A DNA stretch of 59,813 nucleotides from Clostridia bacterium (GCA_016287565.1 JAEFAM010000002.1:71648-131460), one strand, 5' to 3'. Positions 309 to 19,237 are shown, counted from the first letter of the stretch. The notes: generated by a model from the letters alone, not told the origin. Made by a program: numbers and translations.

Positions 309-337
309 ATTATATCATCACAGGTCCGAAAGCGCAA
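309..337 (-). promoter_or_regulatory. Sigma-A type promoter for the partial gene 1-248
   Basis: Read on the minus strand there is TTGCGC at 337-332, a 17-base spacer and a perfect TATAAT at 314-309. It lies just downstream of the ttcA-like stop codon and points into the truncated gene. Confidence 0.7.
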
Positions 338-349
338 ATGTATTTTTTG

Positions 350-1081: not shown

Positions 1082-1114
1082 AATCCTGACCCTTTACCGG
1101 CCTCGCGTGCGGGC

Positions 1115-3022
1115 TCAGCCCAGATATTGATAGCTGAGGCGTCCCATGGGCAAGGACAGGCCGGTCACGTAATAATCCATTATGTCGGAGGGATTTTCCA
1201 CTCCGTCCGCCAGCTTGAAATAGAACCGGTCGACGCCCTCGTCCATCCCCAGCACGGAGCGGGGCAGCTTCACCTGCATTACGCTGCCGTCGATGATATA
1301 TTCCGCCTCTCCCGCTTTGGTACCGGAAAAGTCCGCGGACAGTTTTTCCACCGTCAGCTTCCCTTCTCCCGCGTCTGCGCGGCCGATTACGAATTCGTAG
1401 CTTTCCCAGCCTTTGGCCTCTACTTTTCCGGTGCCGATGAATATGTTCATCCAGCCCGTATCCCCGTCTTTCCTGGCCTCGATATCCCCCTCCGCCCGGA
1501 TGAGGAAGTAGAAATTGTCCGCGTCGTGGGCGACTCTGATCTCGTTGACGTTGGTGCGGAAAGCGGCGGTCTCGTAATGGACGGTGGGAGCGGCCCCGTT
1601 GCTGTTGCGGGCTTTATTGACCACTATCTGGTTGCGGAACACTGATGCCACGCCGTCCCAGGCGGAAAGGTCGGAAGTCATGGGCACCGTCACGTCCGGG
1701 GAGTCGAACTGGCTGCCCGGTCCGATCGCAACGTTTTTGTACGCCCTTATATTCCTGGCCAGCTGCACGTAGAACGCGTCGTTGTAGCCGCCTTTCATCA
1801 TCTCGATGTCCCGGGAGAATTCCATGTCCGCCAGGTCCACCATGGCATATTCGCCGTCGTAGAGGCTCTTTCCGGCCACCCACTCGTTCCAGCCAAGCAC
1901 GAACACCGTGCCCGGGTCCTCTTTAAGGGCCACGTCCCAGGTGGACTGGAAGAACTGGCCTTCATATGCTTTTTCGGGCTCGTTTTTGCCGGTCTCCACG
2001 TTCCAGCCGCGGCCCCAGTTCTTGTCCCCTCTGGTGATGGAGAAAGACATGGGAATGGCGGGGTGGCTGGCCACGGCAACGTTTATGACGTCGTTGTGCA
2101 CCGGCGCCGGATAGGTCCATTCGATCCAGGGGAAGCCGTTTTCCTTGTACGCTTCGCTGGGCCACTGGGAGTCGCGGAAGGAGAAGAATTCCAGTATCTC
2201 GTCGGACAATTTATTGGACTTGTAGTCTTTCTCTCTCGACCGCACCTCCATATAATCCGCCTCTTCGCTGATGTTGCCGATGATCAGGGGCTTTCCGTCA
2301 ACATAGTACCACACGTCCTTGTAGGAGCCTTTTTTGTAGTAGCTGTTGTACAGGTTGGTGATGACCCGGTGGGAATAGGCGTTGGTGTAGAAGACGAGCC
2401 CCGGGACCTTCCAGCCGGCGTTGATCAGCTTCATGGATTCGTTTATGATCTTGCCCACCACAGTGTCGTAGGTGACGGCGTTGGTAACGTCGAAGGCGAT
2501 GAAATCCACGCCTGCCATGGACAACAGCGCCAGATGGCGGCGGATGACCCAGCTGTCGGAGGAGTTGTAGTACCCGTACAGCGGCTGGCCCCAGAAGTAT
2601 CCGGCGCCGGCGGGGGCAATTTCGTTGTCCGTCTTGAACATCAGCTCGATGCCGTTGTCCAGCTTCAATATCTCGGTGACGTCATATATCTTGTCGCCGC
2701 CGTGCTGCCCGAGAGTGCAGAAGTAGAAGATGCCTACGTTGCGCTCCTTGTCCTTCTTTTCTCCGGCCGCCGGTTCGACGGTGCGCTGAAACTGGTCGAT
2801 GCCGACTATATAGTTGTTGGTATATCCGTTCCTGTAATATTCCGCAGGCGTAATATCGCTGATGATCTTCACGGAATCGTCCTCCTCTTCACCGTCGCCC
2901 GTGCCGCTGCCGCCGCCTCCGCCTGCGCAGCCTGCAAGTCCCAGGACGCCCAGTGCCAGTACCGCGCACAGTATCAGGCTCAACGATCTTTTTAAAATAT
3001 CCGAAACGTTAAAACGACTCAT
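1115..3022 (-). CDS. Lipoprotein with GH99/GH71-like barrel and CBM9-like C-terminal domain
   Basis: The 635-residue product begins with a lipoprotein signal peptide whose lipobox LAGC places the lipid-modified Cys near residue 32, followed by a Gly/Ser/Asp/Glu-rich linker. The central part (about 90-470) resembles the (beta/alpha)8 enzymes of the GH99/GH71 group (motifs VGIFYFCTLGQ, YFWGQPLYGYY, GWNEWVAG). The C-terminal 150 residues (NEIRVAHDADNFYFLIRA) look like a family-9-type carbohydrate-binding domain. It is a paralog of the protein at 50251-52410: both share the 'F-W-x-PIYGYY', 'GWNEW' and C-terminal patterns. The ATG overlaps the stop of the upstream glycosidase by 4 bases (ATGA), so the two are translationally coupled. 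Substrate is unknown; mannan or another glycan is a guess from the family. Confidence 0.75.
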   Translation of the reverse strand: MSRFNVSDILKRSLSLILCAVLALGVLGLAGCAGGGGGSGTGDGEEEDDSVKIISDITPAEYYRNGYTNNYIVGIDQFQRTVEPAAGEKKDKERNVGIFYFCTLGQHGGDKIYDVTEILKLDNGIELMFKTDNEIAPAGAGYFWGQPLYGYYNSSDSWVIRRHLALLSMAGVDFIAFDVTNAVTYDTVVGKIINESMKLINAGWKVPGLVFYTNAYSHRVITNLYNSYYKKGSYKDVWYYVDGKPLIIGNISEEADYMEVRSREKDYKSNKLSDEILEFFSFRDSQWPSEAYKENGFPWIEWTYPAPVHNDVINVAVASHPAIPMSFSITRGDKNWGRGWNVETGKNEPEKAYEGQFFQSTWDVALKEDPGTVFVLGWNEWVAGKSLYDGEYAMVDLADMEFSRDIEMMKGGYNDAFYVQLARNIRAYKNVAIGPGSQFDSPDVTVPMTSDLSAWDGVASVFRNQIVVNKARNSNGAAPTVHYETAAFRTNVNEIRVAHDADNFYFLIRAEGDIEARKDGDTGWMNIFIGTGKVEAKGWESYEFVIGRADAGEGKLTVEKLSADFSGTKAGEAEYIIDGSVMQVKLPRSVLGMDEGVDRFYFKLADGVENPSDIMDYYVTGLSLPMGRLSYQYLG

Positions 3023-4554
3023 TTCTTTCCTCCCGCGTGTACGACCACAGTCTTTCCTCCGGCGCGTATCTCCACGTCGGCTTCTACGGTGCTCTCTATC
3101 TTTATCTCAGGGAATTCGTCTGCGCTTTTTCGGGCTCCGGCGAACAGATCCAGCGTGCCGCCTTTGAAAGGATAGCGGCGTATACCGTGGCTCTCGGTGA
3201 GGCGCAGATCCCAGACGATCTTTCCGTCCAGGGCATATGGCCTGATGCCGAAAACGTACTCGAAAAACACGGATATCGGAGCCAGCCCGGTCCAGCCCAC
3301 GAACTCGTCCTTGGCAGGGATCCCCGGTCCGTCCCGCTCCGGAGCGTAATTCTCGAAAAGCGTCCCGGTCTCGTTGAACGTCCTGACGACGCAGCCCAGG
3401 TAGTCTTTCGCTATCTCGTGGGCAAGCTTCCCTGCCCTTTCGGTCCCCAGGCCGTCGAGCCCTTTCAGGATCATATAATTGGTGGGCGCCCAGACAGAGC
3501 CCAGCCAGTACCCTCCGTCGGGGCAATAATGGGGATCGTCCGCGGACAGCGTGGGCACGCGGTTGTGGCGTTTGAACTCCGCCGGATCGTCCAGGTGGCC
3601 GATAAATCTCGCTCTTCTCTCTTCCGGCACGATCCCCGCCAGCAGCGTCCAGTATGCGCCCGCGGACTTGACCCCGGTGAGCGTACCGTCCCGCCGCCTG
3701 TCGAAATAGAATCCGTCAACGTCGCTCCACATGGTCCTGTTGATCACGTCTTTAAGGAACTCCGCCTCCCGCTTCAGCTCCCCGGTCTCTTCCTGCCTCC
3801 CCAGCAGCTCCCCCATCTGCGTCAATATCCTCGCGGACAGGTATTGCTGTGCGCATGCGTCTATCCAGCTCAAAAAGCCGTGGGACGAACCCGGATCGTA
3901 CCCCGCTTCAGCCCTCGGCTGGTTGTCCATGCCGCAGGCAAGGCCGCAGCTCCAGTAGGTACCGTCCTGCCAGGAGCGGTGGAGCCGGAGCCAGTTGTGG
4001 TACGCCATCAGCGGGTCGAAGACCTTGCCAAGCCTGGAGCCGTTGCCGGTGGTCTGGTAGTATTCCCACTCCGCCCAGGGAAGCACGTTGGGCCCGGTCG
4101 ATGCGGGATCGTCCCTGGAAAACTGCTCCATGCCGTCGGTCTCGCTTATCTCGCGGCAGATGAATCCGTCCCTGTGCTGATGGGAATAGAAATTGTCCAG
4201 CGTCTTCTGGAAATCGAAGGCCAGGACGCCGTACTTGCCGAACATCACTATAAAGGAAGAGTCCCACATAAACAAAAAGCCGTTGAACGCCGTGTCGATG
4301 AAATCCGACACGAACCCGGCTTTCCGGTTGGCTTTTCTGAGGTTTTTGAATGCGGTCCGCCAGGCTTTGTCATAGGCGGCCACCGCGTCGCCGTGGCCTT
4401 CCCAGAAGGGTTCCGGCAGCAGGTCCTTTACCCGGTCGTATTCGGGAAGAGGCGATCCTTCGCAGGAGGCTCCTTCCGTCAAAAAAACGTTTTTCTGAAC
4501 GTGTGGTTCAGGCACGTAAAACAGATTTCCGTCGCGTGTAAAAATATCGTGCAT
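3019..4554 (-). CDS. Trehalase/GH63-like (alpha/alpha)6 glycosidase
   Basis: This 511-residue protein has no signal peptide and is probably cytoplasmic. Its motifs FMWDSSFIVMFGKYG, LPWAEWEYYQTTGN, DGFYFDRRRDG and GSVWAPTNYMILKGL fit the alpha-alpha toroid of GH63/MGH-type glycosidases, often annotated as 'trehalase family'. The family hydrolyses alpha-linked glucosides or mannosyl compounds; the exact substrate cannot be read from sequence. The start ATG has a strong GGAGG site 8 bases upstream and a promoter directly in front. It is the first gene of an operon with the GH99-like lipoprotein, which suggests that the lipoprotein acts outside and this enzyme finishes the product inside. Confidence 0.75.
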   Translation of the reverse strand: MHDIFTRDGNLFYVPEPHVQKNVFLTEGASCEGSPLPEYDRVKDLLPEPFWEGHGDAVAAYDKAWRTAFKNLRKANRKAGFVSDFIDTAFNGFLFMWDSSFIVMFGKYGVLAFDFQKTLDNFYSHQHRDGFICREISETDGMEQFSRDDPASTGPNVLPWAEWEYYQTTGNGSRLGKVFDPLMAYHNWLRLHRSWQDGTYWSCGLACGMDNQPRAEAGYDPGSSHGFLSWIDACAQQYLSARILTQMGELLGRQEETGELKREAEFLKDVINRTMWSDVDGFYFDRRRDGTLTGVKSAGAYWTLLAGIVPEERRARFIGHLDDPAEFKRHNRVPTLSADDPHYCPDGGYWLGSVWAPTNYMILKGLDGLGTERAGKLAHEIAKDYLGCVVRTFNETGTLFENYAPERDGPGIPAKDEFVGWTGLAPISVFFEYVFGIRPYALDGKIVWDLRLTESHGIRRYPFKGGTLDLFAGARKSADEFPEIKIESTVEADVEIRAGGKTVVVHAGGKK

Positions 4555-4587
4555 CCCGAAGGCCTCCGCATTTGATCAGGTGCCTTT

Positions 4588-4617
4588 ATTTTACATTCGC
4601 GGAGCGGGCGTTGTCAA
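4588..4617 (-). promoter_or_regulatory. Promoter of the GH63-like/GH99-like operon
   Basis: On the minus strand a perfect TTGACA (4617-4612) is followed by an 18-base spacer and TAAAAT (4593-4588). The -35 box overlaps the stop codon of the transglutaminase gene, so the glycosidase genes have their own start even though they follow the preceding operon closely. Confidence 0.7.
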
Positions 4618-7600
4618 TTCCGGCCGCCCTCTGCGGGCTCTTTCTTTTTGTGAAAATAATATCTGCACAGCACGAATATCAGGATGCCGATCTCGGCGGC
4701 AACCACCGCGGTGATGATGATATATACGGCGGGATCCGTTTCGTCGGGAGCCTCGAACACGCTGACCGTGACGCTGGAAGCGGTGTCGATAAAGTCGTTG
4801 ACGCCGTCGCCGTTGAGGTCCGCGGCCCGGAGCGTGGCAGAGACTTCTCTTGTCCCGGGATTGAGGCCGGTGAGCAGGTCGCTGTCGGTAAACACCGCCA
4901 CGAAATCGCTTTCGTTGGAATAATCCACCGCGACATTGGAGACCTTGTCCGTCCATTTAAGCGACGCCAGGTCTGCGGTCTCGTCCACCTGCAGGCTCAC
5001 GGACAATCCCTGCACGTCGTATCTGCCGGGCTTCACCGTCAATTTTCCGGGAGTGAAATATATGATATATTCTCCGGTCACGTCGTTGCCCTCTGCGTCA
5101 ACGATCTGCAGCATCGCCATCGTATTGTCGCTCTCTCCCGCGTACAGCCCGGCGCCTCCTGCCTTGAAGCGTATGGCATGTCCCTCTTTCAGTACGCCGT
5201 GAGTCAGCGAATATCCGTCGGAAGTGAGGTACGTGCCGTCGAATTCTTTCTCAGCGCTGTCGCTTTCGATATGGAGAAGCACGTATTCTCTGCCGTTCTC
5301 GGCGGTGATATATACGATGCCGTCGCGGGAATATTTGCCCTCGATCTTTCCGTAGTCCTCCGGATCAGGCAGCATGCGGATATGCTCCAGAGGCAGCACG
5401 GTGACGGTGCGGGAGACGGTCACTTCGGGTGTATGCACGTCCCTGGGAGAATCTTCTCCGAGGTCGTAGGAGGCAAGATAGGTGTAGCTGCCCGCATGGC
5501 TCATTACCAGCTCCGTGACGTAATCCCCTGCCGCGGTCTCCAGATCCCTGAACCGCACCGTTTCGCCGTACTGATCGCTGAAAAGCGCGGTGTCCGGCAG
5601 CCTGTCTCCGGTATATGCGGTCCATTCTCCGGTCCCGCCGCCGTCCAGGTCGTTCCGGGTCAACGTCTGGCCCACGTATATCTCCACGGGGTCAAGCTCG
5701 ATCTCCCTGGCCCTGACTTCGATGGTGCACTTGCCGTTCTCTATCACCTCGTACTCGCCGGTCACGTCGTTGCCCTCCGCGTCGACCACTTTAAACTCCT
5801 CGGAGCCCGTGATCAGTTTGCCCACGTTGGTTATGGCGGGAGTCCTGGCAACGATCCTGTGCCCTTCCTGCAATATACCCTGCACGCGCAGCTGAACGGT
5901 CTCGGAACGGAGCGGTTCTCCGTCGTAGATCTTTATTGCGCCGCCCATGGTATACACCAGAAGGTTGTATTTCAGCTGAAGCTCTTCCGCCGGTCTGACA
6001 AGGCCTTCCAGGTCTTCGGGAGTCTGGTCCTCTTCCTCCCCGGAAGAAGGCGGCGTCACTTCTACGGGGATCCAGCCTATGCCTTCCAGGAGGACTTCCA
6101 CCCAGGCGTGGGCCTGCTTGAAAGTATAATCGTTGCCGTTTACCGTGTCGGTCACGTTGGCAAGGAATCCGGTGGTATATCTGGCGGGTATTCCCAGGGC
6201 GCGGTAAAGGGCGACCGCCGCCGAAGCGAAGTGGTTGCATATGCCCTGCCTGCTCTCGGTGAGGAAATATATGATGGGATCGGCGTCCGAAGGGATCGCG
6301 GGGAATTTCATTTTATATTCGCACCGGGAGGTGATATACTCCTGAACGTCCCGGATGACCGTAGGAGAATCGGCCCTTATCCCGGCCTCCGCCAGAAGCG
6401 TTTTAGCCGTGTTCAGCACGTTCTCCGGAAGCTCGGTGCACAGGTCCGCGGCCTTGATATAGTAGTTTCCGGTGCCGGAGACGCGGGGCAGCGAGACCAG
6501 CTTCGAAATATCGAACTGGGTCACCTGGCTGTAGGTCAGCTCATATCCCGTGTCAAGGTATACGGCATCATCGTCGTAGGAAGCGTTCCTGGAAATGCAG
6601 TCGGAGAAACAGGGCACCGCCAGGACGCCGTCGGCAATAAGATCGGTCACCCTGACTTTGTTGTTCTGGATATAACCGGCGGAAATAAGCGTCGAGTAAG
6701 TCATAGTGAGCGGAGTCACGGACAGGTCGATCAGATGTTTCTGGTCGTTGACCCAGCTCTTTCCGTTGTAGTCCGTATAGCTCTTCACCCTGAGATATAT
6801 CTGGCCGGGGCGGTCGCTGACAACGTGGCCGGCTACGTTGTCCGAGGGGTCGAATGATTCGGTGGATATTCCACCGTTCAGCATTTCCTTGGAGCCGGAT
6901 TCTACGGGGTTGCCTCCCTGGCTTTCTCCTCCGTGGGTATCGGGCTGGCCGTCCTCTCCCGGGATGCCGTCTTCCCCGGTGCCGTGGCCCTTTACTTCTT
7001 CGTCGTATCTGATCTGTTCCAGTTCGTCCTTGTCGAATACCACTATGTACGTTATATCGTAGCTGGAATTCCGCATGGAATTGTCCCTGCCGCAATATAT
7101 ATCCACAGCTGCTTTCTTTTCGAACTGGTCGAATGGAACGCTGAAGCCGATCCCTCTCGGTATGATAAAGTCGTGGTCGGCGATGGAGCCTTTAACTACA
7201 GCGAAACTGCCCACTTCGTAGGATCTGGTGGTGAGATTAGCTCTGGTGTAATATAGTTTTATGGTGATGGGCCGTTTCGTTATCGTAAAGGTGCCGGTCT
7301 CGCAGGTAACGTCGTAGCAGTTGTTGACCAGGCGGCCGTTGTTGTACAGGTTCACGTTGAATGTGTTGCGCCAGGTTCCGGCGGTGACCTTGGAGGCAAA
7401 TTCAAAATAGCCTATCGTATCCGTTTCCGCCACGGTCCCTTTCACCACTTCGGCGCCGTGATACTCTTTCGCATAGCCGTCGTACACGGTGGTGTCTCCG
7501 TCGATGCTGCGGACGGTTATGGGCCTTGGATATATGTTCAGGTCTCCGTATTCGTACGATACGTCGTAATGGCCGGTGACGTTCTTTCCGGTACTTTCCT

Positions 7601-8684
7601 CGAAAACTTCCGCCGTGATCCTGTTTTTGTACGTTCCTACCACCAGGATCTTTTCGCCGGCGATCTCCAGGCGGTCTCCCTCCAGAAGCGCTCCGGAGGC
7701 GATGGAATACTCGCCGCTCTCGAACTCGTACCCGTCGTATACCTTGTCCGTATCCGGCGTGGCCAGTTTCAGTTCGATGGGGTCAACGCGCAGTTCTCCC
7801 GGCAGCACGGTAATTTCGTAGCAATAGGTCACGTTGCCCAGAGGCCCTTCGATCTCAAATCCGTCAATTGCGTTTTTATACTTTCCCACTTCCGTATGGC
7901 GCGTGTCCGGGAACTTCACCGTCAGCATATCGCCCCCGGCAAGAGATCCTTCCCGGATCTCATATTCTTCCGCCGTGATGGGAAGCCTGTCGTAGGTCTT
8001 CCGGGCCGAACCGGTGACGATGGTAACGGGCCGGGGCAATACTTCCACGTTGCCCGCTTCGAAGGTGACTTCGTAGCAGAACGTAACGTCCTCGCCTCTG
8101 GCATTGACGATCTTCGCGGTCAATATCTCCGCCTTTCCTGCCCCTGCCGTTTTTACGTGATCTATCTGCGCGAAGGCCAGCCTGTCCCCCTCCGCCAGAT
8201 TGTCGCAATCTATCACGTCCAGCGGATCGGTCTCATCGCCGTAAACGGTACTGAAATCCGTTATCCTTAAAGTGAGAGGCCGCTTTTCCACCTGGAGCGC
8301 CGCTTCCTGGGTCCTGACCATTCCGAAAGGATTTACTGTGCGCGCCTCCACGGAATACTCACCTATAGTCAGCTCCCTGAGGGAATCTACGGCTGCGGGA
8401 TCAACCGCCACGGCTGCCTGACCGCTCTCTGGGCCCTCTTTTACGCTGTAGTCGACGCCGCTTAAAAACGCCTTCGTGGAACTCAGCCTGGCGTCTCCGT
8501 ACACGTACCGTCCGGAAGCGAGGGTGCCCAGATAAGCGCCCGTGAAGAACAGCAGGAGAAATACGGCGGCAACCGCAAGTACCGCGGCGACGGTCAAAAG
8601 GACGCGATGCTTCTTCAGCCAGTTTTCCATGGCCGTTCTTCTTGCCGCGCGCTTTTTTATTTTTGACACGTATTCGTCGTACAT
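4614..8684 (-). CDS. Giant membrane-anchored transglutaminase with MBG-type repeats
   Basis: The product (about 1356 residues from the chosen start) has a short basic cytoplasmic tail, a membrane helix (about 27-50), a long outer region and a C-terminal helix plus basic tail (about 1316-1345). The outer region starts with at least five MBG/YDG-like beta repeats (VYDGYEF, TVYDGYAKEY, 'V..G.Y.N', 'RPITI'). A transglutaminase core follows: Cys in QGICNHFASA (near 813), His in QAHAWVEV (near 857) and Glu in WIPVEVTPP where many relatives have Asp. More Ig-like repeats follow, then a Ca-binding-like DLNGDGVND loop. An ATG at 8684 with GGAG seven bases upstream was chosen; a GTG at 8765 extends the frame by 27 residues but has no ribosome binding site. 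It is the last gene of the McrB-like operon. Confidence 0.85.
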   Translation of the reverse strand: MYDEYVSKIKKRAARRTAMENWLKKHRVLLTVAAVLAVAAVFLLLFFTGAYLGTLASGRYVYGDARLSSTKAFLSGVDYSVKEGPESGQAAVAVDPAAVDSLRELTIGEYSVEARTVNPFGMVRTQEAALQVEKRPLTLRITDFSTVYGDETDPLDVIDCDNLAEGDRLAFAQIDHVKTAGAGKAEILTAKIVNARGEDVTFCYEVTFEAGNVEVLPRPVTIVTGSARKTYDRLPITAEEYEIREGSLAGGDMLTVKFPDTRHTEVGKYKNAIDGFEIEGPLGNVTYCYEITVLPGELRVDPIELKLATPDTDKVYDGYEFESGEYSIASGALLEGDRLEIAGEKILVVGTYKNRITAEVFEESTGKNVTGHYDVSYEYGDLNIYPRPITVRSIDGDTTVYDGYAKEYHGAEVVKGTVAETDTIGYFEFASKVTAGTWRNTFNVNLYNNGRLVNNCYDVTCETGTFTITKRPITIKLYYTRANLTTRSYEVGSFAVVKGSIADHDFIIPRGIGFSVPFDQFEKKAAVDIYCGRDNSMRNSSYDITYIVVFDKDELEQIRYDEEVKGHGTGEDGIPGEDGQPDTHGGESQGGNPVESGSKEMLNGGISTESFDPSDNVAGHVVSDRPGQIYLRVKSYTDYNGKSWVNDQKHLIDLSVTPLTMTYSTLISAGYIQNNKVRVTDLIADGVLAVPCFSDCISRNASYDDDAVYLDTGYELTYSQVTQFDISKLVSLPRVSGTGNYYIKAADLCTELPENVLNTAKTLLAEAGIRADSPTVIRDVQEYITSRCEYKMKFPAIPSDADPIIYFLTESRQGICNHFASAAVALYRALGIPARYTTGFLANVTDTVNGNDYTFKQAHAWVEVLLEGIGWIPVEVTPPSSGEEEDQTPEDLEGLVRPAEELQLKYNLLVYTMGGAIKIYDGEPLRSETVQLRVQGILQEGHRIVARTPAITNVGKLITGSEEFKVVDAEGNDVTGEYEVIENGKCTIEVRAREIELDPVEIYVGQTLTRNDLDGGGTGEWTAYTGDRLPDTALFSDQYGETVRFRDLETAAGDYVTELVMSHAGSYTYLASYDLGEDSPRDVHTPEVTVSRTVTVLPLEHIRMLPDPEDYGKIEGKYSRDGIVYITAENGREYVLLHIESDSAEKEFDGTYLTSDGYSLTHGVLKEGHAIRFKAGGAGLYAGESDNTMAMLQIVDAEGNDVTGEYIIYFTPGKLTVKPGRYDVQGLSVSLQVDETADLASLKWTDKVSNVAVDYSNESDFVAVFTDSDLLTGLNPGTREVSATLRAADLNGDGVNDFIDTASSVTVSVFEAPDETDPAVYIIITAVVAAEIGILIFVLCRYYFHKKKEPAEGGRN

Positions 8685-8798
8685 ATCCGTTCTCCGTCCG
8701 TATCGTCCCTGTGTTTTCTCTTCGACCTGTCGTCTCTGTTCAGTCGTTTTGTCCCGGTCCTTCACCTGCGGCCCGTTATTTTCATAAACCTGACCGCC

Positions 8799-9383
8799 TT
8801 AATAACGGCCTGTCCTGTCGTCGCTGCGTATGATCCGCGTGCCCTCTCGACCTTCCGAGTCCTCCCATATCACCGTGACTTCGGCTCTCAACTCGCCCAT
8901 GCCCTTCAGAAAACTCAGATCCGTCTCAAGCATTTTAGCGCTCAAGGGCTGAACGGTAAATAATTCACCCAATATTCCCGAATTTATCAACTTGTCGTCT
9001 TCCGTATAGATGCGGTAGAACGCCGAGAGCACCTTTACGGCACCTTTTTCGGTATCGTTTTCGTTGGAAACGGAGACGCCCAGTTTGTAATGCTCTAATT
9101 CTACGCCCTCGGAGTACCCGGTACCGACCAGACTCAAGAAGCAGTACCCGGAAACCTCCGCTTCGGAAGGGGCGTATGGCGTTTGCGCGGGAGGGACGGT
9201 GTTCTCTCTGGGAGGAGCGGTAAATTCCGGCCTGACCGTGGCGATCTCCCTGGAGGATTCGACTTTGAACACGCCCGTTTTAGCGCATATCACCAGCACG
9301 AGGCCCACCAGCGCCAGCGCGGCGATCACTCCCGCCAGCGGCAGCACGATCCTGTTCATACCGGCTTTTTCGCTGTCACGCAT
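8799..9383 (-). CDS. Small membrane-anchored protein of the McrB-like operon
   Basis: The 194-residue protein has one N-terminal membrane helix (about 12-32), a Pro/Thr-rich stretch (APPRENTVPPAQTPYAP) and an outer beta-rich domain of about 130 residues (VSVSNENDTEKGAVKVL, MLETDLSFLKGMGELRAEVTVI). The domain could be an FxLYD-like or Ig-like fold with a role in complex assembly, but it is not recognised with confidence. Its ATG overlaps the stop of the first ATPase gene (TGATG), so the two are translationally coupled, and the transglutaminase follows. This tight linkage suggests that it bridges the cytoplasmic ATPases and the surface enzyme; that is inference. Confidence 0.75.
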   Translation of the reverse strand: MRDSEKAGMNRIVLPLAGVIAALALVGLVLVICAKTGVFKVESSREIATVRPEFTAPPRENTVPPAQTPYAPSEAEVSGYCFLSLVGTGYSEGVELEHYKLGVSVSNENDTEKGAVKVLSAFYRIYTEDDKLINSGILGELFTVQPLSAKMLETDLSFLKGMGELRAEVTVIWEDSEGREGTRIIRSDDRTGRY

Positions 9384-10732
9384 CAGACCTCACCTCCCCT
9401 GAACCGCTCTAAGAAAGCGTGGGAGCGCTTCATCTCTTCCTTGCCGAACAACGCGTCCAGCATACGGTCAAGGCCTTCCGCCTCTCTGCGGCAGACCACG
9501 GGATTCAGGCCGTCCATCCGGCGCAGTATCTTGTTGGCCACCACCGCGTCAACCGCGTCGGTCTCGCTGCCTCCGGCCGCCTTGAACACGGGCACGAAGC
9601 GCAGGAACTGCTTCATGGTCCTGTTGCCGAAGGTGATGCCCAGGTGCGCTCTTAAGTACCTGTCAAGCTCTTCCAGCCTGTTCTGCTGCTCCTGTGAAAG
9701 CGGATCCGCTGTTACCGCCGCGTCGAACAGCCTGCTCAGTTCCGAAGCGGAGATGGGCGCTGGCCCGGTGGGGGGCGCCGCAAAAGGCTGGCTGCGGCTG
9801 TTGAGGGAGATCACGAAGGCCCTGTCGTACACTTTGTCCGAGATGGCCAGGGTGGAATCGTCGTTGTTGGCGGTGCCTGCGAACCAGACGTTGTCCGGGA
9901 GCTTCAGGGTGCCGCCGGTGAGCAGCGGAGGGTCCGAGGGCCTGCTGTCGGAAGTCACCCGGAGCCTTCTTGCCTCGGTGTCCGGCAGCTCCAGCAGGGA
10001 CAGGAATTCGGCGAAATAATATTCCACGCGGGCGATGTTCATCTCGTCCAGGACCACTGTATACACTTTATCGGTGAGATTGGCCTCGTACAGTTTGCAC
10101 AGCAGTTCCGTCTCCGTGTACGCGCCGGTGAACTCGTTGTAGTAGCCCAGCAGGTCGGTGCGGTCTTTCCAGGAAGGCTGCACGGGAGTCACCACGGAAG
10201 TGTTGCCCACGTATTTCCCGAAAGCGTATGCCAGCGACGTTTTGCCGGTGCCGGAAATGCCCTCCAGGATCGTCAGCTTCGTTGACGCCATGCCTGCGAT
10301 ATACGCCCGGATAACGTCCGGTTCGTAGTACAGGCCGCACTCGTAAGCCGCGTAATTCCTGAAACCGGAGGCGAAGCTCTTGAGAGACGCGGTACCGGCC
10401 GCTGCCGGGACGCCGGGCTGCTTCTGAATCTTCTTGCCGCCGTAAGCCTTCTCCACGTCTTCGAGCCGGGAGAACCTGGGCTTTTCTGCCTTTTTGGATT
10501 CGGCTTTATGGATCTTATTCAATCTGACCGCGGACACGGTCAATGCTACGGCCATCGCCACGCAGGCCACGTCAAGCAATATGAGCACGGCCGCCACGGC
10601 GATCGCGGCGTTTTTTGGCATCATCAATACTTTGCTCCAGCTCTCGGCGCTCTCGACGGCGTCGTGTCTGGCCAGGGCAATGCACAAAACAAATCCAGCA
10701 GCGGTCACGAAGGCCGCCAGGATCGAACTCAA
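9383..10732 (-). CDS. Membrane-anchored McrB-like AAA+ ATPase (copy 1)
   Basis: This 449-residue protein has two N-terminal membrane helices (about 3-20 and 42-68), a basic linker (PRFSRLEDVEKAYGGKK) and an AAA+ module. The Walker A is GISGTGKTS (158-166), the Walker B region is VVLDEMNIARVEYYF, and the sensor-1 region is FAGTANNDDS, which keeps the N-x-x-D spacing of McrB GTPases. It is a close paralog of the ATPase at 12534-13907. The given TTG start has no clear Shine-Dalgarno. A CTG at 10759 would overlap the upstream stop as CTGA, has AGGTG seven bases before it, and adds LKKVAVFAI, so the true protein may be nine residues longer. It probably forms hexamers, perhaps mixed with copy 2. 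Nucleotide preference (ATP or GTP) cannot be decided. Confidence 0.85.
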   Translation of the reverse strand: MSSILAAFVTAAGFVLCIALARHDAVESAESWSKVLMMPKNAAIAVAAVLILLDVACVAMAVALTVSAVRLNKIHKAESKKAEKPRFSRLEDVEKAYGGKKIQKQPGVPAAAGTASLKSFASGFRNYAAYECGLYYEPDVIRAYIAGMASTKLTILEGISGTGKTSLAYAFGKYVGNTSVVTPVQPSWKDRTDLLGYYNEFTGAYTETELLCKLYEANLTDKVYTVVLDEMNIARVEYYFAEFLSLLELPDTEARRLRVTSDSRPSDPPLLTGGTLKLPDNVWFAGTANNDDSTLAISDKVYDRAFVISLNSRSQPFAAPPTGPAPISASELSRLFDAAVTADPLSQEQQNRLEELDRYLRAHLGITFGNRTMKQFLRFVPVFKAAGGSETDAVDAVVANKILRRMDGLNPVVCRREAEGLDRMLDALFGKEEMKRSHAFLERFRGGEV

Positions 10733-10755
10733 TATGGCAAATACCGCAACTTTTT

Positions 10756-12429
10756 TCAGATCCCGTCACCTGCCTTCTCGTCGGTACCGGATGCTTCCGG
10801 CGCCCCTTCTTTTTTCGCTTTCCGCCTCTGTGAATATATCTCTTTCTTTATGCGCTTCTTGTTCTTTTTCCACTGGCCTTCGAAATAGCCGTCGAAAGCC
10901 TTTTTCTCGGCTTCCAGCCTGATGAAATCCTCCCGGTTGTCCACCTCCGGCGCCGCGCCGTCTTCTCCTGCGGCAATGCCCGCGGCCCTCAGCCGGGCGC
11001 TCAGCAGGTCGATCTTCTCCTTATATTCGGCATTGATCCTGTCTATCTCGGCGGCGTGCAGGGCGCGTTCAGAATCGAGCCGGTCTTCATATTCTTTTCC
11101 GATCCTGGCGGTCTCCCTGTCGATCCTGGCAAGGGCGTCGCTTTCCACTCTCCGAAGATCTTCTTTCAGCCCCTCGTTTTCGGCCTTCAGCCTCTCGTTG
11201 TTCTTCTGGGCCTCCTGGCGGTCGCCCAGCAGCCCTAACCGCTCTTCCGCCGCGGCTTCCAGTTCGCCGGAAAGGGAGACGTTCTGCTCCTCTAAGAGCC
11301 GCATATAATCGTCTTTACCGGCAGCCGCCACGGACAAAGCGGCCTTCATGCGCTCCACCGCGGCCCGGCGTGAATCCAGCTCCGCAATGATCCTTTCGTT
11401 GTCCTCCAGCCGGAACTGCTCTTTTATCTCGTCCCAGCTGCGGAACGCGGACTGATAGCCGGTGAAAAGCTGCAGGACGGCCAGTTCCCGCATCGTCCCC
11501 AGTTCCGCGCCGGTCAATACCACCGTTCCGCTCTCTTCTTTCGTCACCCTGTAGCCCTGCCCCGGATCGGAGCTGATGAACGTGTACAGCTCGAATGCCT
11601 TCTGGAAATCCACGTTGTTCTTGATAACGTTGGTGCGGACAACGGGCGGTATCAGCCTGGGGGCGTCCGCCACTCTAACCATAAGCTGATTGGCCAGGAA
11701 TCCGTCAACCGCCGCGGCAATATCGTCCAGCCGCCCCATCACGGCCTCCAGCTCGCTGTCGACCGCGCCTGTGCCTTCCACGGAGGATTCGGATATCTCC
11801 GAAAGATAATCCGCCTTGCCGCCTCCGCTTCCGCCTTTTACGTGTATGCTGATCCTGATCCCGCTGCCCGAGGCGGCCTTTTTGATCTGGGAATACCTCA
11901 GTGCCACGAAGGCTCTCAGCTCCGTCAGCGTCAGGTACAGGAACCGGTTCTCGTATATGCCGAAATCTTCGTCGTTTTCCGTGACGTATATCTCTTCCGG
12001 CAGCACCTTCCCGCCCTCGTCCACGCGCTTGATCATATTGCTGTGCCGTGACAAATGGCTTACGGACTCCCGGGAGAATTTTTTGGCGCGGTCGATGCGC
12101 ACCACTTCTCCGTCTTTTTTTATCAGGCTCCTGGCCTGTTCGATGGCTTTTTCCAGGTGCGGCAACGCTGCTTCCACGGTGTCGATCCAGGCCGTGTCAA
12201 CTTCGCACTTCTGACGGACGGCGGATACCATTGCCCGGGGAGCGTCTTCTTCTCCTTCGGCGGCAGGCAACGTGCCGGTGGAACTTGCGGCGGTCCTGAA
12301 GGCGCTCTCCAGCCCGGGAGACACGGTAAATCCCCGCGTACGGGCGCTCTCTTCAAGCTCTTTTATCAGCCTGTAGAGTTCCGACCCCTCGCTGTATTTA
12401 AAAACCGTTGTCCCGCCGCTGTTTATCAT
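10756..12429 (-). CDS. DUF2357-like protein with long coiled coil, partner of McrB-like ATPases
   Basis: The 557-residue soluble protein has an alpha/beta N-terminal half with the sequence DFGIYENRFLYLTLTELRAF, which resembles the 'ENR' signature of DUF2357 proteins that accompany McrB-type ATPases. Residues about 355-490 are highly charged and heptad-like (EEQNVSLSGELEAAAEERL, KNNERLKAENEGLKEDL), a long coiled coil. The C-terminus is very basic (KKNKKRIKKEIYSQRRKAKK). No PD-(D/E)xK nuclease motif was seen, unlike McrC. The gene sits between the two ATPase genes, 23 bases from one and 104 bases from the other. The McrC-partner role is inferred from context; the DUF2357 match is moderate. Confidence 0.7.
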   Translation of the reverse strand: MINSGGTTVFKYSEGSELYRLIKELEESARTRGFTVSPGLESAFRTAASSTGTLPAAEGEEDAPRAMVSAVRQKCEVDTAWIDTVEAALPHLEKAIEQARSLIKKDGEVVRIDRAKKFSRESVSHLSRHSNMIKRVDEGGKVLPEEIYVTENDEDFGIYENRFLYLTLTELRAFVALRYSQIKKAASGSGIRISIHVKGGSGGGKADYLSEISESSVEGTGAVDSELEAVMGRLDDIAAAVDGFLANQLMVRVADAPRLIPPVVRTNVIKNNVDFQKAFELYTFISSDPGQGYRVTKEESGTVVLTGAELGTMRELAVLQLFTGYQSAFRSWDEIKEQFRLEDNERIIAELDSRRAAVERMKAALSVAAAGKDDYMRLLEEQNVSLSGELEAAAEERLGLLGDRQEAQKNNERLKAENEGLKEDLRRVESDALARIDRETARIGKEYEDRLDSERALHAAEIDRINAEYKEKIDLLSARLRAAGIAAGEDGAAPEVDNREDFIRLEAEKKAFDGYFEGQWKKNKKRIKKEIYSQRRKAKKEGAPEASGTDEKAGDGI

Positions 12430-12533
12430 GATCTAAAACTGCTTTCTCGTATTGCCCTGACGGTCCGCCGCGCCTGACCGTTCCGTTCGTTTGCCCCATT
12501 TGTCCGCTTACCGGTCCGCCGCCTGCCTCCGTC

Positions 12534-13907
12534 TCAGTTCCTTACGTACCCGCTTACGTACGCCTTGCACAGCGGAAGCGCGTCTTCGCCGAACAGCCCG
12601 TCCATGGTCTCGATCAGTTCCCTCGCACCGGCGCTCACGTAGACCGGGTTCTGGTTTTCCAGTTTTCTAAGCACTTTTTTGCACAGGATCAGATCGATGG
12701 CCTCGTTTTCAGTGCCTCCCGCCGCGATATAGACAGGAACGAACTGCTCCGTCTGCTTCATCACGCGGTTTCCGAAAGTGACGCGCATGCGCGACGTCAA
12801 AAATTCGTCCAGCCTGGCGATCTTGAGCCTCGCGGAATCAGACAGCGAATATGCGCTGCGCGCGGCCCGGAACATTTCCTCCAGCCGAAGCGCCGATACG
12901 GGCTCCGGAGCCACCGCGGGTGCCGTAAAAGGCCTGGCCCTGTCGCTGAGCTCCAGCACCATTGCCCTGTCGTAAACTTTATCGGAGATGGCCATGGTGG
13001 AATCGTCGTTGTTGGCCGTTCCGGCGAACCAGATGTTTTCGGGTATCAGTAGCTTGCCGTCGGTCAGGAGCGCGGGGTCGTTGTCACGGCGGGACGATAC
13101 CACTTCGATCTTTCGCGAAGCGGGATCGGGCAGTTCCAGCAGGGACAAGAATTCCGCAAAATAGTATTCCACCCGGGCAATGTTCATCTCGTCCAGCACG
13201 GTCATGTACACGCCGCCCCGGAGGTTGGCCTCGTACAATTTGCACAGCAGCTCCGTCTCGGTGAACGAATCGGTAAATTCGTTATAATAACCCAGCATAT
13301 CCGTCTTGTCGCGCCAGGAAGGCTGCACGGGAACGATCACGGCGTCGTTGGCCACGAATTTGCCGAAAGCGTAGGGCAGCGAAGTCTTGCCGGTGCCGGA
13401 AATGCCCTGCAGAATGATCAGTTTGGTGACGCTGAGGGAGGATACGAAGGCCCTTATGGTGCGGTGATCGTAATAAAGTCCCATGGTTCCGGCCGCGAAA
13501 TTGCGGAAATCATCGCAAAATTGCTCCAGCGCATCGGGACTCGAGGCGGCGCGCTTCTCTTTGGCCTTTTCTTTCTTCCAGCCCTCGGCGGCCTCGTCCA
13601 TTGCCGCCAGCCTGCTGAATCTTTTCTTTTTTAGCTTGTTCTTTTTCTCCGCTTCCCGGGCTTTTATGTCCCGGCCCGTCCTGACGATCATCAATATCAT
13701 TATGAGCAGGATCGCGGCAAGCAGTATGATCAGATACGTCAGGATAGCGTTTCTCGAGGTCAATTTGTCCCACAGCCCCGTATCGGCCGGGACCTGTTCG
13801 CTGTAAACGTACGAGCCTTCCGCCTCGGCTTCGCTGCCTCCGCGGATCACGTAGTCGGTATATTCTTTTAATCGCGTCAACTGGTCGATAAATAAAAGCC
13901 TGGACAT
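12534..13907 (-). CDS. Membrane-anchored McrB-like AAA+ ATPase (copy 2)
   Basis: The 457-residue product has an acidic N-terminal segment likely outside the cell, one membrane helix (about 53-76), a lysine-rich linker with KKRFSRLAAMDEA (the same motif as in copy 1) and an AAA+ domain. Walker A is GISGTGKTS (about 168-176), Walker B region TVLDEMNIARVEYYF, sensor-1 region FAGTANNDDS. The core is nearly collinear with copy 1, so the pair arose by duplication. The open frame extends to a TTG at 13955, but the perfect -10 box of the operon promoter (13944-13949) lies inside that extension. The first usable start is therefore the ATG at 13907, with GGAG nine bases upstream. It is the first gene of the five-gene operon. 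Confidence 0.85.
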   Translation of the reverse strand: MSRLLFIDQLTRLKEYTDYVIRGGSEAEAEGSYVYSEQVPADTGLWDKLTSRNAILTYLIILLAAILLIMILMIVRTGRDIKAREAEKKNKLKKKRFSRLAAMDEAAEGWKKEKAKEKRAASSPDALEQFCDDFRNFAAGTMGLYYDHRTIRAFVSSLSVTKLIILQGISGTGKTSLPYAFGKFVANDAVIVPVQPSWRDKTDMLGYYNEFTDSFTETELLCKLYEANLRGGVYMTVLDEMNIARVEYYFAEFLSLLELPDPASRKIEVVSSRRDNDPALLTDGKLLIPENIWFAGTANNDDSTMAISDKVYDRAMVLELSDRARPFTAPAVAPEPVSALRLEEMFRAARSAYSLSDSARLKIARLDEFLTSRMRVTFGNRVMKQTEQFVPVYIAAGGTENEAIDLILCKKVLRKLENQNPVYVSAGARELIETMDGLFGEDALPLCKAYVSGYVRN

Positions 13908-13943
13908 ATCTGATTGCTCCGGTTCCACGTATTTGTCGCTGAG

Positions 13944-13972
13944 ATTATACCACAAGGGGCGCCGTACCGCAA
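13944..13972 (-). promoter_or_regulatory. Promoter of the McrB-like/transglutaminase operon
   Basis: Minus-strand TTGCGG (13972-13967), a 17-base spacer ending in TGG (extended -10) and TATAAT (13949-13944). It fixes the start of the first ATPase at 13907. No internal promoter was noticed before the transglutaminase. Confidence 0.75.
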
Positions 13973-14069
13973 CTTTCCCGCCTCCGAGTCTCTCCTGCCT
14001 TCCCTATTACAGTAACGTTTTTGTGCATTATCGTAACGGCCGGACAAGGCGACCGTCCGCAGCAATCGG

Positions 14070-14166
14070 GCGCGGCAAACGGTTGCGGCAAACGGCGGCG
14101 GTAAACGGACGCGACAGAAGGCTGCGGTAAACGACCGCGTAAATCGCTCGCGCCAACCGGCGGCAA
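14070..14166. repeat. Short imperfect repeats with core GCGGYAAACG
   Basis: Five or so degenerate copies of a 10-13 base unit (GCGGCAAACG, GCGGTAAACG) lie between the McrB-like operon promoter and the terminator of the ribosomal operon. They carry no convincing open frame. They may be low-complexity expansion without function. Confidence 0.4.
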
Positions 14167-14167
14167 T

Positions 14168-14205
14168 AAAAAAGGCCTTCCGCGCTCACGCGGAAAGCCT
14201 TTTTA
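14168..14205 (-). terminator. Intrinsic terminator after rplQ
   Basis: The stem AAAGGC.TTCCGCG pairs with CGCGGAA.GCCTTT around a four-base loop, with A-runs on the left and T-runs on the right, so it can work in both directions. It ends the ribosomal protein super-operon, 27 bases after the rplQ stop. Confidence 0.85.
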
Positions 14206-14232
14206 AAATTATCCTGTTATGCCGGACGTTTC

Positions 14233-14757
14233 TCAGGCCAGTTCAAGGATGGCCATGGAAGCGGCGTCGCCCCTGCGGGTGCCGGTCTTGTAGATGCGGG
14301 TGTATCCGCCCTTGCGGTCCTTGTATTTCGGGCCGATCTCGTCGAACAGTTTGTTGACGACGCGGTTCTCTTCGCCGTTGGCATTCTTGGTCTTGTAGAC
14401 CCACTCGGATGCGCGCTTTCTGGCGGCAAGCCTGGAGGGTTTGTCGACTCTCACCAGTTCGGTGGAAGTGACACGGTCGGCAAATTTGGTGAACTTGCGG
14501 CCGTTCTTGGACGTTACGACGACAGTCAGCTTTCTGCCCTTGGAATCTACGGGCACTTTGCTCACTTTGACCTGCTTGGACTCGAAATTATCCGCTTCCT
14601 TGACGGCGGAAGAGATGAGACGCTCCACGATGCTCTGCACTTCTTTAGCGCGGGCCTCGGTGGTAACGATCCTGCCGTTTTCAAGGAGACCGGTTGTAAG
14701 ACTTCTCAGGATGGCTTTTCTCTGATCGGCTTTGCGGCCTAATTTTCTGTATGCCAT
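14233..14757 (-). CDS. rplQ: 50S ribosomal protein L17, enlarged form
   Basis: L17 binds 23S rRNA near the exit tunnel. The N-terminus ([20 protein letters not shown]) and C-terminus ([20 protein letters not shown]) are typical. At 174 residues it is about 50 longer than the usual 112-130, because an extra basic segment lies between about residues 55 and 120 ([19 protein letters not shown], then [14 protein letters not shown]). The reading frame is intact. The ATG has GGAGG about 10 bases upstream, and rplQ is the last gene of the operon, directly after rpoA as in other Bacillota. Confidence 0.97.
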
Positions 14758-14776
14758 GGTTTATGTACCTCCAATA

Positions 14777-15727
14777 TTACTCTTCGTTCGTCTTAAGTGA
14801 GAGACCGAGAGAGTTAAGTTTAAGAATAACTTCTTCAAGTGACTTCCGGCCAAGATTCCGGACTTTGATCATCTCATCCTCTGTCTTATTCACCAGATCG
14901 CGAACGGTATTGACGTTGGCTCTCTTAAGGCAATTGAAAGAACGCACGGAAAGGTCAAGGTCTTCGATGCTCATGTCGAGGTTGCTGCCGTCGATCTCCT
15001 GGTTCCCGTTCTCGGACGCCTTCTCTTTGAGAGGCATGGGAGAATTGAGATCCATGAACAGCTGCAGCTGGTCGACAAGAATCTGGGCGCTCTGCCCGAT
15101 GGCTTCCTTGGGCGTGAGGGCGCCGTTGGTCCAGACTTCAAGGGTGAGTTTATCGTAATCGATCATGTTTCCCACGCGGGTATTTTCAACGTAGTAGTTG
15201 ACCTTCTTCACGGGAGAGAAAATGGAATCGATGGGAATGACTCCGATAGCCATATTGTCCGTCTTGTTCTTGTCGGCGCTGCGCCATCCGGTGGCGGTCC
15301 CCACTTCCATAACGATGTCCAGTTCTCCGTCGCCGTTCATGGTGCAGATATACTGGTCGGGGTTAAGGATCTCCACGTCGGAGCCGCACTCGATATCCTT
15401 TGCAGTAACGATACCGCGCTTGTTCGCCTTGAGGGAGACTGTCTGGTTGCCTTCGGAATAGAGCTTGAAACCTATATTTTTAATATTAAGTACAATTTCC
15501 GTTACATCTTCCACAACGCCGGGAATAGTAGAGAATTCGTGACTTACACCTTCAATCTTTACGTTCAGAGCAGCCGATCCCGGAAGCGACGACAAAAGTA
15601 TTCTTCTTAATGAGTTACCCAGTGTGATGCCATAGCCTCTCTCGAGAGGTTCCACGACAAACTTGCCGTAAGTTTCCAGTTCATCGGTTTCCACACATTC
15701 AATGTTTGGCTGTACCTTATCGCTCAC
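14777..15727 (-). CDS. rpoA: RNA polymerase alpha subunit
   Basis: The 316-residue subunit nucleates RNA polymerase assembly and contacts UP elements and activators. The N-terminal domain ([20 protein letters not shown]) covers about residues 1-225. The C-terminal domain ([19 protein letters not shown], then [12 protein letters not shown]) carries the helix-hairpin-helix DNA-binding fold. The start is GTG at 15727, with GGAGG eight bases upstream. The gene lies between rpsD and rplQ in the standard order. Confidence 0.98.
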
Positions 15728-15765
15728 AGATTACTCCTCCTTTTGTAATGAAATGAAGATGAATA

Positions 15766-16377
15766 TTACTTGCTGTACAACTCGACGATCAGATGCTCCT
15801 GTACAGGGAAATCGATGTCTTCCCTCTTGGGCATATCGACCACTTTACCCTGGAGGGCTTCCGCGTCAAACGTGAGCCACTGGGGAAGGAGTCTTCCTGA
15901 AGTCTCGTCAACGATGATCTTCATGGCGCTGTTGCTTCTGTATTTTTCTCTTACGGCAACAACGTCGTCCGCGCTGACAAGATAAGAGGGAATGTTTACA
16001 GCTTTACCGTTGACGGAGAAGAATCCGTGGGTGACCAGCTGGCGCGCCTCTCTGCGGGTGCGGGCAAGTCCGAGACGGAAAACGACGTTGTCCAGACGGC
16101 GCTCGATGGTGGTGAGAAGGATCTCGCCGGTGATGCCTTTGGTCTTTGCCGCTTTTTCGTAGTACATCCTGAACTGTTTCTCGAGGATGCCGTACACGAA
16201 TTTGACTTTCTGCTTCTCGTTCAGCTGATTTGCGTACTCGCTCTTCTTATGTCTCCTCTGTCCGCCGGGATTGCGCTTTTTGGACTCGGTCTTAGATTTT
16301 TTCGTATAACCCATAACTGCGGGAGAAATATCCAGCGCCCTGCAGCGTTTTACTATGGGCTGCATATTCTTTGCCAT
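15766..16377 (-). CDS. rpsD: 30S ribosomal protein S4
   Basis: S4 is a primary 16S rRNA-binding protein that starts assembly of the 30S body. At 203 residues it has normal length. The N-terminus (QPIVKRCRALDISPAVMGY, then RNPGGQRRHKKSEYANQL) is the zinc-free clostridial type, and the S4 RNA-binding domain is at about 95-155 (RLDNVVFRLGLARTRREARQ). It follows rpsK within the alpha operon, where S4 is often the autoregulator. No S4 target structure could be recognised here. Confidence 0.97.
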   Translation of the reverse strand: MAKNMQPIVKRCRALDISPAVMGYTKKSKTESKKRNPGGQRRHKKSEYANQLNEKQKVKFVYGILEKQFRMYYEKAAKTKGITGEILLTTIERRLDNVVFRLGLARTRREARQLVTHGFFSVNGKAVNIPSYLVSADDVVAVREKYRSNSAMKIIVDETSGRLLPQWLTFDAEALQGKVVDMPKREDIDFPVQEHLIVELYSK

Positions 16378-16400
16378 AATAAAATTCCTCCTTTACCTGA

Positions 16401-16802
16401 TCAAACTCTACGTCTCTTGGGCGGTCTGCAGCCGTTGTGCGGGATGGGCGTCTCGTCTTTGATCATCGTGACGTCCAGGCCTGCGACCTGCAGAGCGCGG
16501 ATGGCGGATTCGCGACCTTGACCGGGGCCTTTTACGAAGACCTCGACAGTCTTGAGTCCGTGCTCCATAGCGGCCTTTGCGGCAGCTTCCGCGGCAGACT
16601 GAGCGGCGAAGGGTGTATTTTTCTTGGAACCGCGGAATCCGAGGCCGCCTGCGCTGGCCCAGGAGATCGTGTTTCCGTTCATATCGGTGATGGTAACTAT
16701 GGTATTGTTGAAGCTGGAGCGAATGTGAGCCTGGCCGTTTTCAATATACTTACGCTCTTTTTTCTTGCCTCTGACAGCTCTTTTCTGTCCCTGTGCAGCC
16801 AT
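16401..16802 (-). CDS. rpsK: 30S ribosomal protein S11
   Basis: S11 sits on the 30S platform near the mRNA exit and E site. The 133-residue product has the family segments [38 protein letters not shown] and the C-terminal [18 protein letters not shown]. Its start is 14 bases after the rpsM stop, and a GGGAGG-type site precedes it. Order rpsM-rpsK-rpsD-rpoA-rplQ is the standard alpha operon. Confidence 0.97.
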
Positions 16803-16816
16803 GATTCATTCCCTCC

Positions 16817-17185
16817 TTATTTCTTCTTACCGGCGACCGTCTTGCTGGGGCCTTTTCTGGTCCTGGCATTGGTCTTGGTGCGCTGACCGCGTACGGGGAG
16901 ACCCATTCTGTGGCGTCTGCCTCTGTAGCAGTTGATTTCAATAAGGCGCTTGATATTAAGCTGAGTCGCTCTGCGAACGTCGCCTTCAACAGTATATTCT
17001 TTATCGATGACATCCCTGAGTTTACCGATGTCGTCTTCCGTCAGGTCCTTAACTCTGACGTCGGGATCTACGCCTGTTTTCGCAATGATCTCTTTGGCTT
17101 TGGTACGGCCGATGCCGTATATATAGGTAAGTCCGATCTCTATGCGTTTGTCTCTGGGTAAATCCACACCTGCAATTCGAGCCAT
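16817..17185 (-). CDS. rpsM: 30S ribosomal protein S13
   Basis: S13 contacts the P-site tRNA and forms the intersubunit bridge B1. It is 122 residues long, beginning [19 protein letters not shown] and ending in a lysine-rich tail ([14 protein letters not shown]). An in-frame TTG six codons upstream is not the start, because it overlaps the GGAGG site that serves the ATG at 17185. It is the first gene after an internal terminator and a probable new promoter, so the alpha operon may be controlled apart from the spc genes. Confidence 0.97.
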
Positions 17186-17226
17186 GTGTTTGTACACCTC
17201 CAAAAATATTAAACCTTGCTCAAGTT

Positions 17227-17256
17227 TCTATATCGACATTTTGAGGTTCATGTCTA
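17227..17256 (-). promoter_or_regulatory. Probable internal promoter for rpsM-rpsK-rpsD-rpoA-rplQ
   Basis: Minus-strand TAGACA (17256-17251), an 18-base spacer and TATAGA (17232-17227), located after the terminator hairpin and 42 bases before the rpsM start. The boxes each deviate from consensus, so this is a moderate call. Confidence 0.45.
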
Positions 17257-17289
17257 TGCATGCAGCCGCACCGCAAAATGAGAATATTC

Positions 17290-17332
17290 AAAAAACCGCA
17301 CACTGCACCCGTTTTTTACGGGATGCAGTGCG
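17290..17332 (-). terminator. Intrinsic terminator/attenuator between rpmJ and rpsM
   Basis: On the minus strand CGCA.CTGCAtCCCGT pairs with ACGGGTGCAGTGTGCG over a five-A loop, with a two-base bulge, and is followed by GTTTTTT. It lies inside the ribosomal super-operon, 13 bases after the rpmJ stop, so it should reduce or gate transcription into the alpha genes. Confidence 0.75.
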
Positions 17333-17345
17333 ATAATTATTAAGT

Positions 17346-17462
17346 TCAGCCCTGCTTCTGCTTATGCTTCGGATAAGCGTCGCAAATGACCATGACTTTG
17401 CCTTTTCTCTTTATGACCTTGCATTTATCGCAAATAGGTTTCACAGACGGTCTTACTTTCAT
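17346..17462 (-). CDS. rpmJ: 50S ribosomal protein L36, zinc form
   Basis: This 38-residue protein is too short for most gene finders. It reads [20 protein letters not shown] and then [15 protein letters not shown], with the CxxC, third Cys and His that bind zinc in the C+ form of L36. It lies between infA and rpsM, its usual place, and stabilises 23S rRNA folding near the base of the L7/L12 stalk. Confidence 0.96.
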
Positions 17463-17526
17463 TATTTTTGCCCTCCCCTGCTTGTATTCTCCGGTAGTCC
17501 GCCAAGGTCCGGTATCCGGTACCGGA

Positions 17527-17742: not shown

Positions 17743-17772
17743 GCTTTGATTCCTCCAATGCGCAAAGAATGC

Positions 17773-19187: not shown

Positions 19188-19237
19188 AAAGGTTCTACCT
19201 CTTTCGTACAGACCTTAAAAAGGCTGAAAATCAGACA

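Follow-up and report, generated by a model that had tools for sequence, protein, structure and literature searches.

What does a restriction-type motor do when it appears to be fixed in the membrane, has no recognisable nuclease beside it and is encoded next to a giant surface protein? This question is raised by five genes, here called A to E, in a 59,813-nucleotide stretch of DNA from a gut bacterium of the Clostridia (GCA_016287565.1 JAEFAM010000002.1:71648-131460; "the window", in whose coordinates all positions are given). The genes lie in the order A-B-C-D-E on the minus strand at 4614-13907, tightly spaced, as described in an earlier note made from the sequence alone. We lean, by a modest degree, towards the reading that this operon encodes a membrane-anchored, nuclease-free McrB-type motor serving cell-surface proteins, with the motor ring acting on protein E. 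The parts of the unit are the following.

12534..13907, minus strand: gene A, McrB-like AAA+ NTPase 1, 457 amino acids (profile match and tree).
13383..13406, minus strand: Walker A motif of gene A, GISGTGKT, near-invariant in the alignment of relatives.
12996..13022, minus strand: signature GTANNDDST of gene A, the N-x-D variant as defined in PMC11090510.
10756..12429, minus strand: gene B, DUF2357 (McrC N-terminal-like) protein, 557 amino acids, with a long C-terminal coiled coil.
9383..10759, minus strand: gene C, McrB-like AAA+ NTPase 2, with an inferred start at CTG 10759 (the listed open reading frame, ORF, starts at TTG 10732).
8799..9383, minus strand: gene D, single-pass membrane protein with an immunoglobulin (Ig)-like beta sandwich, 194 amino acids.
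4614..8684, minus strand: gene E, repeat-rich membrane protein with a transglutaminase core, 1356 amino acids.
6060..6362, minus strand: transglutaminase core of E, with Cys in GICNHF, His in HAWVEV and Glu in PVEVT.
8604..8684, minus strand: predicted cytoplasmic N-terminal tail of E, with a conserved YxxYxxK, MYDEYVSKIKKRAARR.

The five-gene operon is a real, conserved unit. Among 31 genomes of the order, the ATPase and DUF2357 genes occur in the same 11, adjacent to each other. Full E-like matches were found at seven of the eight two-ATPase loci (the eighth lies at a contig end) and at none of the 23 others (Fisher 3e-6), so that the link to a surface transglutaminase proposed in the earlier note holds: the E-like protein occurs only beside two-ATPase loci. 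A lack of co-occurrence in other genomes, which that note had named as one possible refutation, was not what we found. Four congeners carry the motor genes, and the locus is complete in three of them, each time between rplQ and a glycosidase; in congener G025 the site is empty, with rplQ followed directly by the same glycosidase. This comparison indicates that the five genes are gained and lost together. A mobile island is not supported, given the shared site in the congeners and the empty one in G025. Within the operon, genes C and D overlap by one base and A and B are separated by 104 bases. Relatives of gene C open with MKK at an ATGA that overlaps the stop of B, and the window has CTGA at the same place; we therefore put the start of C, probably, at CTG 10759, which gives a B/C overlap of four bases. 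Gene E most likely starts at ATG 8684, the position where its relatives start.

The two motors were assigned chiefly by their profiles. Gene A has a single strong hydrophobic N-terminal segment (residues 49-81) and gene C has two, in each case followed by the AAA domain, in keeping with the membrane tethering suggested earlier. Both proteins fall below every Pfam cut-off; the one NCBIfam match of gene A, a weak one, is to McrB, and the PADLOC model PDC-M26A matches A with an E-value of 3.8e-44 and C with 1.2e-48. A hidden Markov model of the family scored McrB references at 2e-9 to 7e-84 and the genome's own MoxR at 0.07, with no match to RavA, and a PDB search with a profile of 16 relatives returned McrB as the only matches. 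In the ATPase tree, MoxR and RavA stand together across the root (support 89) from the McrB, CoCoNuT, LlaJI and M26 motors, which group with the window family. E. coli McrB, RavA and MoxR are long branches in this tree, and because of those of E. coli McrB and MoxR we give the profile scores more weight. Together these results place A and C, as the earlier note had it, in the McrB branch and not within MoxR, a position that was tested for and not recovered; whether the two-motor type arose once is not decided by the ATPase tree. The spacing of the signature had been given as N-x-x-D. Both motors read GTANNDDST, and comparison with the McrB-like sequences GTANHDETT, GTVNTDEST and GTMNEDEST shows that this is to be read as N-x-D followed by D, a variant of McrB-like motors described by Bell et al. 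2024 (PMC11090510).

For gene B, the proposed identity as a DUF2357-like partner with a coiled coil and an ENR motif was borne out. The Pfam DUF2357 match is just over threshold (23.8 bits, cut-off 23.3), and profile comparison of the DUF2357 core gave 98.4% (E-value 7e-15) with plasmid DUF2357 proteins and 96.2% (E-value 3e-9) with a set that includes E. coli McrC. The predicted model, built from 38 sequences (mean predicted local distance difference test score 82.6), has a mixed core and then long helices at residues 332-540. Scans of all five proteins with Pfam, NCBIfam and PADLOC matched no nuclease model, in line with the earlier note, which had seen none, and a restriction role was rejected on this ground. 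With a nuclease-free partner and ring parts that bear membrane segments, the motor is unlikely to work on nucleic acid.

The remaining two genes encode predicted membrane proteins. Gene D combines one transmembrane helix with a seven-strand Ig-like sandwich, and a fold search returned generic Ig-like sandwiches (ApaG, GH2 and factor XIII barrels) that pointed to no specific function. Gene E has one transmembrane helix near either end and matches Pfam Transglut_core with an E-value of 2.4e-20; with this match and the Cys-His-acid residues present, the acid being Glu, it is a predicted enzyme. Of the MBG repeats reported earlier, Pfam calls none in the window's gene E, whereas homologues match YDG (PF18657).

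To place this unit among its relatives, we scanned genome contigs and obtained 78 loci (L numbers below), with two architectures that we tallied as distinct loci. In architecture P, one motor and a DUF2357 protein are accompanied by signal peptidases of the SipW type (supported by NCBIfam) and by proteins whose N-terminus is TYAWF-like. This resembles CoCoPALM, a membrane McrB with DUF2357 linked to signal peptidases that was named, not analysed, in Bell et al. 2024 (PMC11090510), and the claim that no relative had been described therefore has to be given up. In architecture T, DUF2357 stands between two motors, and repeat-rich membrane proteins follow, which often have a transglutaminase core. 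The two did not overlap among these loci: SipW was found at none of the 31 T loci, and a transglutaminase at none of the 40 SipW loci. Where at least 4.9 kb of downstream sequence is available (27 T loci), a repeat-rich or transglutaminase protein is always present; a transglutaminase core is visible in 17 and the tail motif Y/W-x-x-Y-x-x-K/R in 22. Among 391 Clostridia genomes sampled evenly rather than by similarity, strong single-motor matches again came with SipW, with one clear exception (L149); the sample also yielded a new two-motor locus (L136), which has a repeat protein but lacks SipW. In the window, no signal peptidase was recognised among the large ORFs of positions 1-20000.

Several other features of these loci were noted. 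About 15 other two-motor loci, as well as L050 (6519-10010) and L060 (6135-9650), have an upstream protein of about 1100 amino acids with a GH3-like part and a degenerate AAA domain that has no recognisable Walker A; Glyco_hydro_3_C and an Fn3-like domain were matched in the two that were scanned. EAL-domain-like (cyclic di-GMP) proteins, judged by eye, occur in or near the SipW-linked loci L022, L023 and L025. At L036 (7820-11167), an intact McrB-like domain is joined across a membrane helix to long outside proline/threonine-rich repeats and a signal peptide in one polypeptide.

In the DUF2357 tree, rooted on M26 with the root on a long branch, the window falls with all T loci and with the cut-off loci L015 and L037 in one clade of 35 rows, which has a Shimodaira-Hasegawa-like approximate likelihood ratio (SH-aLRT) support of 100. 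A topology test formally rejected the two-motor rows as one clade, but its set omitted L015 and L037, which fall inside that clade. The T clade is nested in a larger set (SH-aLRT 100) together with L036 and six SipW-linked loci, and this nesting suggests that the T type arose from a SipW-linked ancestor. The motor pairs themselves differ widely in divergence. In 13 T loci (L031, L032, L034, L038, L040, L048, L058, L060, L064, L070, L073, L078 and L087), the AAA-coding segments of the two motors, of about 1.1 kb, are 98.5-100% identical in DNA while the N-termini differ; most of these loci come from metagenome assemblies, which limits trust in exact identity. In the isolate Anaerocaecibacter muris CLA-AA-M11 (L048), the twin segments are 98.5% identical with a longest exact run of 182. 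The two motors of the window have diverged, with 52% identity at the protein level. The twin identity is most simply explained by gene conversion and would then reflect concerted evolution; part of it may be an assembly effect.

How might such a unit work? Most likely, it is a surface-protein assembly or activation machine driven by nucleoside triphosphate (NTP). The constant membrane-anchored surface partners, the conserved cytoplasmic tail and the L036 fusion speak for a motor coupled to the surface, and the recurrence in many gut Clostridia without a nuclease suggests that a motor of the restriction type has been co-opted for building or operating surface proteins. Because two different motors accompany one B, a mixed ring is suggested: A and C would form one ring, probably of mixed hexamers, at the cytoplasmic face, anchored by their N-terminal helices. 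B would insert in this ring and stimulate NTP hydrolysis as McrC does for McrB through DUF2357, an activity that is established (PMC11090510). D would be an accessory single-pass protein with its Ig-like domain outside. The ring would then act on E, most likely by gripping the conserved cytoplasmic YxxYxxK tail, and so assemble, position or activate it; pulling, holding and switching are all compatible with this scheme. Outside, the transglutaminase core of E could cross-link or cleave surface substrates. The composition of the ring, the contact with the tail, the direction of force, the reaction and substrate of E and the nucleotide used are points that we infer. The earlier idea of a motor-driven assembly or regulation of the enzyme stays a proposal, albeit a better founded one. 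More tentatively, and with somewhat greater doubt than belief, we consider a bolder version: an undescribed surface-assembly machine in which a nuclease-free two-subunit McrB/DUF2357 ring engages the tail of giant transglutaminase proteins, NTP hydrolysis extrudes, assembles or switches them on, and gene conversion holds the twin motor domains nearly identical in many lineages. McrBC motors would then have met another fate besides the restriction of DNA and RNA.

Four points weigh against a motor that acts on E in this way. The relative of E at L020 (2836-5859) lacks the transglutaminase Cys (GVAPHF where others have GICxHF), so catalysis may not always matter. The YxxYxxK tail may be only a membrane-insertion or anchoring signal. 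The repeats were counted with a loose text pattern, which matches in 14 of the 40 SipW loci too; hence the architectures are told apart only by the transglutaminase core and the tail. Finally, Foldseek and VIA searches with the model of B gave no McrC match, since the coiled coil dominates; the best hit of the fold search (Z 6.0) was to a transcription factor, and a PDB sequence search with the B profile gave matches of the coiled-coil type, none below an E-value of 0.01.

Other explanations read the same genes differently. Information could flow inward, with E and D sensing the outside (the state of the cell wall or a host ligand) and the motor responding inside. This would suit two anchored membrane proteins with outside domains, one of them with helices near both ends; yet the unit has no regulator, kinase or transcription factor, and the related SipW loci handle secreted subunits, which argues for outward traffic. 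We regard such a sensing device as unlikely. A shade less probable still is a defence system, in which the McrB-DUF2357 motor, as in PDC-M26, would sense invasion at the membrane and E would be the effector, a protease or cross-linker. Both ATPases do match PDC-M26A (rounded, 4e-44 and 1e-48), the closest plasmid relatives sit in PP2C-kinase-AAA-AAA-DUF2357 sets, and presence within the genus is patchy. However, the remaining genes of the plasmid sets are absent here, no nuclease or other defence gene was found in the unit or beside it, the chromosomal site between rplQ and the glycosidase is common to congeners, the partners are surface proteins throughout, and PDC-M26 is itself only a candidate in its library. 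As for a MoxR-type chaperone cluster mislabelled as McrB, a transglutaminase next to an AAA+ gene is indeed typical of MoxR-DUF58-TgpA clusters (PMC8430577), but profile scores, tree and PDB matches (McrB only) contradict it, DUF2357 stands in place of DUF58, and a separate MoxR-DUF58-transglutaminase cluster, its DUF58 recognised by eye, lies on a different contig of the same genome, so that both kinds exist side by side in one cell; we give this explanation hardly any credence.

The surroundings of the unit include the following features, the two flanking genes lying outside the system.

14233..14757, minus strand: rplQ, the upstream boundary (read at the locus).
13944..13972, minus strand: promoter-like TTGCGG-17-TATAAT ahead of gene A (read from the sequence).
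4588..4617, minus strand: promoter-like TTGACA-18-TAAAAT at the operon end (4617-4588; promoter scan).
3019..4554, minus strand: MGH1-like glycoside hydrolase, the downstream boundary.

The element at 13944-13972 had been called a single clear promoter. Its -10 box is indeed perfect, but its -35 box agrees at only three of six positions and the promoter scan does not flag it. TTGACA-18-TAAAAT is the better promoter match and probably serves the next gene, the glycosidase at 3019-4554. Beyond the latter, positions 1115-3022 (minus strand) encode a protein of 635 amino acids that starts like a lipoprotein and matches nothing in Pfam; a homologue follows the glycosidase in one congener, and in G025 it is absent between the glycosidase and a PP-loop gene. 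Elsewhere in the window, Rfam at the gathering threshold recovered an S10-Clostridia ribosomal leader (30352-30438, minus strand) and a Gut-1 RNA (57118-57197, plus strand).

If our reading is right, a restriction motor and its stimulator were recruited to act on surface proteins in Clostridia and Bacilli from the guts of animals. The CoCoPALM kind, named but unexplained, would gain a second, transglutaminase branch, and this branch would make its function testable, because it offers a membrane protein as a defined candidate substrate, one whose cytoplasmic tail is short and conserved. Annotation tools may, moreover, count such motors as candidate defence genes (PDC-M26A).

Set against known systems, the operon shares with McrBC type IV restriction of E. 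coli K-12 an AAA+ motor paired with a DUF2357 stimulator, but has membrane segments and N-x-D rather than N-x-x-D, with no match to a PD-(D/E)xK nuclease and no DNA-binding domain found. CoCoNuT has the N-x-D motif in common with the window's motors, whereas its associated HEPN or other nuclease was not found in the unit. Among plasmid records (Rhodoferax, Deinococcus and Pseudanabaena), the closest relatives of the motor and DUF2357 belong to PDC-M26; these loci carry PP2C, a kinase and a large AAA-domain protein, all absent here, and no surface protein in the plasmid stretches read. Only the motors match a PDC-M26 model, the full set being judged from the plasmid loci and not from the library's rule. 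MoxR-DUF58-TgpA clusters and the bifidobacterial PFNA operon (PMC8430577) likewise join an AAA+ protein to a membrane transglutaminase, but do so with a MoxR motor and DUF58, without DUF2357. Searches of the open-licence literature for McrB or DUF2357 together with transglutaminase yielded no such system. The nearest likeness is to CoCoPALM, with which the window shares the N-x-D McrB-like motor with an N-terminal membrane segment, the DUF2357 partner with a coiled coil and the surface-protein context, and among whose SipW-linked loci the DUF2357 tree nests the window type. A further mark of CoCoPALM is an FtsB-like coiled coil fused to the motor; what A and C show are membrane segments. The window type differs in having two motors flanking DUF2357 where CoCoPALM has one, and repeat-rich transglutaminase membrane proteins in place of the signal peptidase and TYAWF-type secreted subunits. 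By sequence, the window type is related to CoCoPALM as a second, transglutaminase-linked branch of the same kind.
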